A DNA stretch of 64,000 nucleotides from Planctomycetota bacterium (GTDB lineage: Bacteria > Planctomycetota > UBA8108 > UBA1146): positions 1-64,000 of the forward strand of contig JABHOG010000034.1 of NCBI GenBank assembly GCA_018694835.1, in the 5' to 3' direction. Below, one piece after another: positions 60,294-64,000 of this stretch (position 1 is the stretch's first letter; each line of letters begins with the position of its first letter). Under the pieces are notes generated by a model. That model was not told the DNA's origin and ran no database searches. It worked only from the letters and a program-made list of their open reading frames with translations. A program made the translations under genes and the position numbers.

Positions 60294-61367
60294 ATGCTAT
60301 CTGGGGCCTTTTTCCTGATTTTATTGGGCTCAGTCCTGAGCCCCCTCCAGGTACCAGAACCTGCCCCTTCACCCGGAGACCCCCCCATCGAGCGAGACGA
60401 TCAGGGAAAATCTCCAGCTCCCCATCCGGTCACCGCTACTGCCATCGACGATCTGGCTCGTATCGTTCCCTCGTCATTTCCGCTGGGAGAGCGATTGATG
60501 TTCAAGGCCACCGTCGAATGGAAGGGCGCCAGTGTGCTGGTGGGATACCTCGAACTGGCCACCTGGGAAGATGACGATTCGAGGAAAGTGCTCCACGCAA
60601 GGGGCCGAGGGCAGCGCTTTGGCTATTCGATCGATCAGCGAATCGTCAGCACGATGAACCTTGAGGGAGAGCGGCCGATCTCCTTCATGAACACCCAGCG
60701 AGGAACCGAGCAGCACACCAAGAAACTGATGTTCGAAGATGGCAAGATCAGTTTCTCCAGGAGAAAACACTGTCTTGAGGAGGACTGCTCCGATCCCACT
60801 CATCTCGTCGCCAAGGTCGCCTGGAAAGGCCCGATACCCTGGGGTACCAAGGAAAAGCACTGCGACGACCGACACTGCGGGAACTCCGCTCACGAGGTGT
60901 GGATCCACATCAAAGATCACGAGGTGGAAGAGCCGTATGTCGACCTCCTTACCGCCATATACGTCGCCAGAACCGCAGCCACCCCTTCCCGGGAGCAGCC
61001 CCTCATCATCCCCGTGGTCAATGATGACTCGAGGTGGTATGTCGAGGTCTCACCGCAAAACACCGAGACGATTCAGGTCGAGGAAGGTGAATACGAGGCG
61101 ATCGAGATGGCTCTCAATCCCATCGCTTCCGACGGGAATGAGAAGAAGCGATTCGAGGGGTTGTTCGGGATTCACGGGACTCTCCGCGTCTGGTTCGATT
61201 CCATCAGCGGACGCCCAGTACTGATCGAGGGGACCCTTCCCTTTGCGTACTTGCAACTCAAAGCGCGTATCGAGTTGATCTCCGTCAGTGACGCTTCCGT
61301 GGTCAAATCCAGGCATGCTCAGCAGATCGATCCAGAATCATCCAGTTCCAAGAAGGGATCTAGATGA
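60294..61367 (+). CDS. DUF3108-type exported protein
   Basis: Exported protein of about 357 residues with a signal peptide (MLSGAFFLILLGSVLSPLQV). A Pro-rich segment precedes the DUF3108-like domain: FPLGERLMFKATVEWKGASV, then SIDQRIVSTMNLEGERPISF and a closing LFGIHGTLRVWFDSISGRPV. The family is periplasmic with unknown function. A Cys-rich insert (HCLEEDC; HCDDRHCG) is unusual. It starts at an ATG after GGGTGGGA. It overlaps selA by 4 bases, so it is likely co-transcribed with the selenium genes. Confidence 0.75.
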   Translation: MLSGAFFLILLGSVLSPLQVPEPAPSPGDPPIERDDQGKSPAPHPVTATAIDDLARIVPSSFPLGERLMFKATVEWKGASVLVGYLELATWEDDDSRKVLHARGRGQRFGYSIDQRIVSTMNLEGERPISFMNTQRGTEQHTKKLMFEDGKISFSRRKHCLEEDCSDPTHLVAKVAWKGPIPWGTKEKHCDDRHCGNSAHEVWIHIKDHEVEEPYVDLLTAIYVARTAATPSREQPLIIPVVNDDSRWYVEVSPQNTETIQVEEGEYEAIEMALNPIASDGNEKKRFEGLFGIHGTLRVWFDSISGRPVLIEGTLPFAYLQLKARIELISVSDASVVKSRHAQQIDPESSSSKKGSR

Positions 61368-62773
61368 ACCAGCCGGACACCGGCGAGTTACTGCGGCGAC
61401 TTCCCCAGGTCGATCGCTTGCTCCAACGAGAGGACGTTTGCGAACTCTCCGCTCGCTACTCCCGAGCTCTGGTCCTCTCAGAATGTCGATCTCTGTTCGA
61501 CGGATTTCGTGCTCGCGCTCTCATTGGTGAACTCCAGCCAGAGGAAGTGGTCGAAGATCAGGTCGTCGAGACGCTGACCACTCGTCTAGAACAACGAGAT
61601 CAACCCTTCTACCGCCGAGTGATCAATGCCACCGGGATCGTGCTCCACACGGGTCTCGGGCGCGCCCCGATTCCACCCGATGTCGCCAATGCTCTGGTAG
61701 AGACCCTTCGTCACCCGGTCAGGGTCGAGATCGATCTCGAGAGTGGAGAGCGTGGAGGGCGTGACGAAGGAGCCGCAATACTGCTGAGGCAACTGACGGG
61801 TGCCGAGGACGCCACCATCGTCAACAACAATGCAGGAGCGACCCTGTTGCTCCTGTCGGCGCTGGCGAAGGACAAGGAAGTGCTCGTCTCCCACGGCGAA
61901 CTGGTCGAGATTGGCGGCTCCTTCCGTATCCCCGACATCATGGAGCAGGGGGGGGCTCGACTTCGAGCGGTGGGCACCACCAACAGGACTCGTGCGAAGG
62001 ATTATGATCAGGCATGCACTCCCGAGTCAGGGATGATTCTCAAGGTACACACCTCCAATTATCGCGTCGTCGGCTTCACCGAAGAAACCAAGATCGAGGA
62101 ACTATGCCAGATCGGAGAGAAGCACCAGGTCCCGGTGGTCCATGACATCGGCTCTGGCTGCATGGTCGATCTGGCGGCGCGAGGTAAGATGGGCGAATCG
62201 TACGTCCGAGAGAGCATCGCCCACGGCTGTGACCTGGTCTGCTTCAGCGGTGACAAGTTACTGGGTGGACCTCAGGCGGGAATCATCGTCGGCAGCCACG
62301 AACTGATCGAGAAGTGTCGAAAGCACCCGCTCTACCGTGCACTTCGTCCGGGACGAATGACCTACATCGCACTCGAGGAAACCCTGCGAATCTATCTTCG
62401 GGGGGAGGAGCAGGCGATCGAGAGGATTCCGTCACTGAACCGAGTTCTGACTCCTCCTGAACAACTGGACGGCCGACTGGAACAGTTGATCACAGGCATC
62501 TCACAGATTCCCGGAGTCGATGCCAGCGCACTCTCGCACGATGGATTTGCTGGCAGTGGATCGCTACCGGCTCGACCCATCGAATCTCGTGCGGCCCGGG
62601 TGACCATCTCCCACTGCTCGGCACAGGAACTGGCCCGAAATCTTCGCACCGGAGAGCCCTCCGTATTGCCCACCGTCCAGAATGACGCCGTATTCCTGGA
62701 CGTTCGGACCATCTCCGACGACGAAGTGGACCTGATCACCGCAAGAATTGCAGAAATCGCCTCGGGCGCCTGA
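61364..62773 (+). CDS. selA: L-seryl-tRNA(Sec) selenium transferase
   Basis: PLP enzyme of 469 residues that converts Ser-tRNA(Sec) to Sec-tRNA(Sec) using selenophosphate. It shows RRVINATGIVLHTGLGRAPI, a Gly-rich VNNNAGATLLL stretch, and PLP-binding SGDKLLGGPQAG with Lys298 (E. coli SelA uses Lys295). Length matches E. coli SelA (463). The start overlaps the DUF3108 stop (ATGA). selD follows 56 bases later, and tRNA-Sec after that. Confidence 0.95.
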   Translation: MNQPDTGELLRRLPQVDRLLQREDVCELSARYSRALVLSECRSLFDGFRARALIGELQPEEVVEDQVVETLTTRLEQRDQPFYRRVINATGIVLHTGLGRAPIPPDVANALVETLRHPVRVEIDLESGERGGRDEGAAILLRQLTGAEDATIVNNNAGATLLLLSALAKDKEVLVSHGELVEIGGSFRIPDIMEQGGARLRAVGTTNRTRAKDYDQACTPESGMILKVHTSNYRVVGFTEETKIEELCQIGEKHQVPVVHDIGSGCMVDLAARGKMGESYVRESIAHGCDLVCFSGDKLLGGPQAGIIVGSHELIEKCRKHPLYRALRPGRMTYIALEETLRIYLRGEEQAIERIPSLNRVLTPPEQLDGRLEQLITGISQIPGVDASALSHDGFAGSGSLPARPIESRAARVTISHCSAQELARNLRTGEPSVLPTVQNDAVFLDVRTISDDEVDLITARIAEIASGA

Positions 62774-62829: not shown

Positions 62830-63882
62830 ATGTCCACTACACCCATTCGCCTGACAGATTATGCATCCTGCGCAGGCTGAGCGGCCAAGTTACCCCCTGG
62901 GGACCTGGTCGAGGTCCTCTCCAACTTGCAACTCCCGACTCGTGAAGAAGTCCTCCACGGACCCGGAACCCTCGACGATGCCGGAGTGATCAGGATTCCC
63001 GGATCCGATCACTGCATCGTCCAGACTGTCGATTTCTTTCCACCGATCGTCGATGACCCGGCAGACTTTGGCAGGATCGCTGCAGCCAATAGTCTTTCGG
63101 ACATCTATGCGATGGGCGGGACTCCATTGAGTGCGCTCAACATCGTCGGGTTTCCGGCAGAACTTCCGACATCGATCCTCAGTGAGATCCTCGCCGGAGG
63201 CGCAGAGAAGATGGTAGAGGCGAACTGTGCTCTGCTCGGCGGACACAGCGTCAGGGATTCAGAGGTGAAGTACGGACTCGCGGTGACCGGAACCATCGAC
63301 GCCGACCGGATCATGACCAATGGCGCAGCTGAAGCAGGAGATCTGCTGGTTCTGACCAAGGGCCTCGGAACCGGAAGCGTCAGTACCGCACTCAACAAGC
63401 AGCAGGCGGATGCGGATGTGCTGGCCGCGGCCACCGCATCGATGGCGACCCTCAATGCCGCTGCAGCAAGAGTGGCGATCGCACTCGATGCTCACGCGGT
63501 GACCGATGTCACCGGTTTTGGCCTTTGTGGGCATGGGGCCGAGATGGCGACAGCCAGCAACATGACGCTGGAGATCATCGCCTCACAATTGCCCATCATC
63601 GCCGGCGCCGAAGATCTCGCCCGCAGGGAATTGACCTCGGGGGGAGCAAAGCGAAACAGGGAGCACCTGGCAGATCGTCTCGATCTGGTAGGGAATGTTC
63701 CAGCTCACCTGGCTGGATTGGCGCTCGATTCCGAAACCTCCGGGGGCCTGTTGATGGCGATTTCCCCCGATCGAATCGCAGATCTCGAGGAGTCGATGAG
63801 TCGAGAGCAGATCCTCCATTTCTCCATCATCGGGGAGGTGAAGCCTCCTCAAGGTTCTTTCCGCATCCGAATCCTTGGCTGA
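62830..63882 (+). CDS. selD: Selenide, water dikinase; a selenoprotein with in-frame TGA (Sec17)
   Basis: Makes selenophosphate from selenide and ATP. The true start is the ATG at 62830, with AGGAAGGAG near 62814. The N-terminus reads IRLTDYASCAG-Sec-AAKLPP. The in-frame TGA (62878-62880) falls at codon 17, exactly where E. coli SelD has its catalytic Cys17, with Lys20 also aligned. The remainder is a normal SelD: LGGHSVRDSEVKYGLAVTG, TKGLGTGSVSTALNKQ and DVTGFGLCGHGAEMA. The total is 350 residues (E. coli 347). A caller ignoring Sec would start at 62926 and lose the active site. Confidence 0.93.
62899..62919 (+). promoter_or_regulatory. SECIS-like hairpin in selD mRNA
   Basis: GGGGACCU pairs with AGGUCCUC (8 pairs, one G-U) across the loop GGUCG. 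The loop begins 27 bases after the TGA. Bacterial SECIS elements sit at a similar distance and have GG-U in the apical loop; E. coli fdhF has AGGUCU. It would recruit SelB to decode the UGA. Confidence 0.75.
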
Positions 63883-63948: not shown

Positions 63949-64000
63949 GGGGGTGAATGGGTACCTGGTGGGCCTCCTGGGCTTCAAACCCATGGTGCGG
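63949..64000 (+). tRNA. selC: tRNA-Sec (5' part, cut by window end)
   Basis: Begins with the acceptor arm GGGGGTGA. A D-arm containing CCTGGTGG is followed by the anticodon loop CTTCAAA (63982-63988) with anticodon TCA at 63984-63986. The flanking bases TGGG/CCCA pair. The spacing from 5' end to anticodon (35 bases) matches E. coli selC within one base. The variable arm starts and the sequence ends. Position directly after selD supports the call. Confidence 0.78.

Follow-up and report, generated by a model that had tools for sequence, protein, structure and literature searches.

A predicted selenocysteine-containing selenophosphate synthetase encoded between selA and selC in a Planctomycetota genome

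Sec machinery genes at the locus

We analyzed a stretch of 64,000 nucleotides (the window) from a contig of a Planctomycetota bacterium (GenBank assembly GCA_018694835.1, contig JABHOG010000034.1), at the end of which three genes of the selenocysteine (Sec) system follow one another on the forward strand. The first is selA, encoding L-seryl-tRNA(Sec) selenium transferase (61364..62773, 469 aa), which matches TIGR00474 with 527 bits (cut-off 267.9) and whose own stop codon is TGA. Directly downstream lies selD, encoding selenide water dikinase (62830..63882), with an in-frame TGA at codon 17 (62878..62880). The third gene, directly downstream of selD, is selC, a tRNA-Sec with anticodon tca (63949..64000 in the window, spanning approximately 63949-64046 on the contig), identified by RF01852 (67.5 bits, gathering score 47) and reported as tRNA-SeC by ARAGORN. 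Since this gene is cut by the window end, Rfam at gathering thresholds returned no match within the window itself. A second RF01852 match over threshold in the genome (C79:81390) was considered as another tRNA-Sec and discarded, being a tRNA-Ser with anticodon tga.

The neighbourhood is conserved in relatives: selA lies directly upstream of selD in all 14 genomes of the same family or order that we examined (L018-L031), and ARAGORN placed a tRNA-Sec near selD in 13 of the 14. The remaining factor, selB, was found away from the window on contig C45 (392 bits, cut-off 242). The genome therefore has selA, selB and selC, the machinery criterion for a bacterial selenoprotein gene. Planctomycetes with the full Sec machinery and other selenoproteins have already been described (PMC4807772).

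The selD reading frame

The selD frame starts at ATG 62830, preceded by a Shine-Dalgarno-like AAGGAG, continues for 15 further codons to the TGA, and then stays open until the stop codon TGA at 63880-63882, which makes 350 residues with codon 17 read as Sec. The product has two AIRS domains and scores 348.4 bits against TIGR00476 over residues 7-314 (cut-off 125), and phmmer aligned it to Escherichia coli SelD (PDB 3u0o) from residue 1, with no gaps over the first 37 residues. Because the score is far over the cut-off and the N-terminal alignment is gapless, we do not consider the frame spanning TGA17 to be a product of chance. In this alignment TGA17 stands opposite Cys17 and Lys20 is retained, and U17-A-A-K20 forms the UxxK motif (catalytic Cys or Sec with Lys at +3); the predicted protein belongs to TIGR00476 both by its score over the whole protein and by this motif. 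A sequence-only reading of this DNA had proposed that selD opens at the upstream ATG, which agrees with the AAGGAG and with the conservation of residues 1-16, and that Sec17 replaces the catalytic Cys17 while Lys20 is kept, as the E. coli alignment likewise supports.

The same reading had expected standard gene calling to yield a shortened enzyme, and the ORF list made with genetic code table 11 indeed gives selD as an N-terminally shortened ORF of 318 aa starting at TTG 62926. It had put the later start 32 codons downstream, which is the right distance, but had taken the codon there for ATG; the first in-frame ATG 3' of TGA17 is codon 95, at 63112. The listed ORF is what would be expected if TGA17 were a true stop and SelD translation began at TTG 62926 or further downstream, so that residue 17 was missing. 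We consider this very improbable: such a product would have neither Lys20 nor the catalytic residue, conservation across the family and the phylum includes both residues 1-16 and the TGA, and, while AAGGAG precedes ATG 62830, there is no Shine-Dalgarno-like sequence at the usual distance 5' of TTG 62926.

Conservation of the TGA codon in relatives

We searched for SelD in 98 related genomes, ranging from the same genus to the same phylum. Wherever SelD was found in a member of the genus or family, the match contains a TGA; two genomes of the same family (G005 and G009) gave no SelD match in this search, which may be due to Sec loss or to incomplete assemblies. All 30 of the same-phylum homologues that were inspected (the best 30 loci) have a TGA at the Sec17 position. 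Counting by eye the same-phylum SelD-like matches above 150 bits, 62 of 82 contain one TGA and 20 contain none; among the latter, nine are weak and lie in frames of 751-792 aa, probably representing fused SelD-like proteins, and one is a match that leaves out residue 17. An independent set comprised 80 loci from named genomes: TGA was found in 72 and Cys in 5, and the motif scan did not resolve the other 3. The closest homologues of the window SelD among named genomes are also from Planctomycetota, with 52% identity.

Two observations had been named beforehand as counting against the Sec reading, namely close relatives lacking the upstream conservation and a stop in place of the TGA with no reading continuity. 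We looked for both; close relatives keep residues 1-16 together with the TGA, and the frame continues beyond it. A sequencing error at the TGA, or decay of selD, might be considered for a draft genome of 149 contigs, and yet the same TGA occurs in about 100 independent homologues and the frame is intact on both sides, which leaves this explanation with a probability close to nil. A single in-frame TGA within a conserved gene would also be expected if TGA were an ordinary sense codon in this organism, for example for Trp. However, selA and selD both terminate at TGA, so that the codon is not reassigned in this genome; moreover, the homologues have Cys or TGA at the site rather than Trp, and a tRNA-Sec (tca) is present together with SelA and SelB. 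Reassignment is thus extremely improbable.

A predicted bacterial SECIS downstream of UGA17

Downstream of UGA17 we identified a candidate bacterial SECIS (bSECIS) hairpin at 62899..62919 on the forward strand, 26 nt after the UGA, with a stem of 8 bp (62899-62906 paired with 62912-62919) and the loop GGUCG (62907-62911). Published bSECIS criteria call for a loop of 3-9 nt, a stem of 4-16 bp, a G in the first two loop positions, a distance of 16-37 nt from the UGA and a minimum free energy of -7.5 kcal/mol or lower; the selD hairpin passes all of them, with a loop of 5 nt, a stem of 8 bp, a spacing of 26 nt and -12.7 kcal/mol.

The stem shows covariation across 19 same-phylum sequences, 15 of them distinct: 95.8% of cells are paired, and in three pairs both partners have changed, over five cells in total. 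Of the eight stem pairs, two are invariant across this set and hence uninformative. In a shuffle test, 3 of 500 replicates matched the number of pairs and none of 500 matched the number of cells, and sliding the partner strand by one column lowered the pairing to approximately 66%. The 66-nt region around the hairpin is no more stable than shuffled sequence (z = -0.25), so it is covariation and position, rather than overall stability, that support the bSECIS. With a scripted test, hairpins of the bSECIS type were found after 68 of 102 Sec-SelD TGA codons, versus 71 of 1020 controls, which were positions drawn from downstream parts of these loci.

In the selD genes of some distant planctomycetes (L036, L041, L051), the hairpin apparently occurs in another register, with the loop GUG or GUU at 33 nt from the UGA, compared to 26 nt in the family of the window.

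Interpretation of the Sec-containing SelD

The reading frame, the position of the TGA, its conservation, the hairpin and the machinery genes are all directly visible in the DNA, and we conclude that selD almost certainly encodes a full-length selenophosphate synthetase with selenocysteine as its predicted catalytic residue. From what is known of the family, SelB, bound to the hairpin 3' of UGA17, would bring Sec-tRNA(Sec) to this codon, the charged tRNA being made by SelA on the product of the adjacent selC; Sec17, together with Lys20, would then use ATP to convert selenide to selenophosphate, and this selenophosphate would in turn supply SelA for the charging of tRNA-Sec.

SelD is needed to make Sec and selD itself has a Sec codon, so the gene needs its own product for full translation. 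Beside its role as a Sec codon, UGA17 could therefore serve as a switch that depends on selenium: when selenium is scarce, translation would end at codon 16 and SelD would fall, while with selenium the protein would be completed, in a self-reinforcing loop. This would follow from the presence of a Sec codon in a gene required for making Sec, and the selA-selD-selC layout is compatible with it; against it, we saw no Cys-containing SelD in the genome (which has one SelD match) from which such a loop could start from zero. We regard the switch as possible but rather unlikely.

The Sec-containing SelD/SPS2 family of selenoproteins has long been known and is widespread, with members in bacteria, in archaea (Methanococcales, Methanopyri) and in eukaryotes (PMC13188914, PMC4561486); PMC4561486 deals with selenoprotein forms of SelD across many species. 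Among the selenoprotein families of prokaryotes, Sec-SelD has been described as the second most widespread. The window SelD does not differ from these proteins (UxxK, TIGR00476) in any essential respect, sharing the predicted Sec at the Cys17 position, U-x-x-K, the full domain architecture and a bSECIS after the UGA. It also has the same length and family as E. coli SelD, as well as Lys20 and a nucleophile at position 17, which is Cys there and would be Sec here.

The two proteins differ in their second Cys, located at -3 (CxxU) in the window SelD and at +2 in E. coli. Among 102 Sec-SelD sites, 52 have the Cys at -3 (CxxU), 9 have it at +2, and none has both. The -3 and +2 cysteines (62869-62886 in the window) are possibly alternative resolving cysteines, or may reflect lineage history only.

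The window SelD is thus among the most common selenoproteins known in bacteria, ordinary apart from its risk of misannotation, and leaves little room for novelty beyond the feedback switch. In a test on 20 genomes, only 195 of 298 selenoprotein genes were annotated correctly (PMC12013277), indicating that the truncation of selenoproteins is a general and known problem. Accordingly, the value of the finding lies mainly in annotation, since a standard ORF caller yields in this lineage a shortened enzyme without the catalytic residue. It further identifies the genome as one that decodes Sec, and this made the second, less expected selenoprotein candidate described below findable.

Other candidate selenoprotein genes in the genome

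We sampled the selenoproteome by searching the genome with a covariance model built on the selD hairpin. One match led to a gene for a SCO1/SenC copper protein (PF02630, 8e-17) with an in-frame TGA, on the forward strand outside the window (G000:C4:7108-7797, loci L131 and L163). The TGA replaces the second Cys of the CxxxC motif (FFYTTCSGI-U-PGVT) and is followed by the hairpin AACCU-GGUCA-AGGUU. A same-phylum SCO homologue and other SCO proteins have CxxxC, and Cys occupies the position aligned with the TGA in the SCO structures 4hde and 3me7; a conserved EHAG His is found downstream. Counting the genome studied here, the TGA is kept in 14 genomes of the family, with 69-100% identity and a hairpin in each, and in all 14 a multicopper oxidase frame lies immediately upstream. 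No NCBIfam model matches the TGA-containing protein, SCO is not among the 119 selenoprotein families of a 2026 review, and we found no report of a SCO selenoprotein in the literature searched.

These data make it quite likely that the genome uses the Sec system for SCO1/SenC, encoded beside a multicopper oxidase, and that Sec stands in for the second of the two Cys in the copper-binding CxxxC. By analogy with the known copper site of the family, this Sec would occupy a copper ligand position. If true, SCO1/SenC would add a selenoprotein family to those listed in 2026, with a Sec residue at a copper site; in our view, it is a more interesting outcome of following this lead than the Sec-containing SelD.

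Other matches of the SECIS model (on C118, C84, C32 and others) had no convincing in-frame TGA, or had TGA-bearing frames that look like chance. Also outside the window is a formate dehydrogenase alpha gene with NuoG-like N-terminal Fe-S domains (G000:C78:26151-28157, forward strand, locus L156). Its in-frame TGA (NCSRG-U-HSP), accompanied by a hairpin with a GGUCU loop, sits at the known Sec site, as in an expected selenoprotein, and we count this second Sec gene in the same genome in favor of the Sec reading of TGA17.
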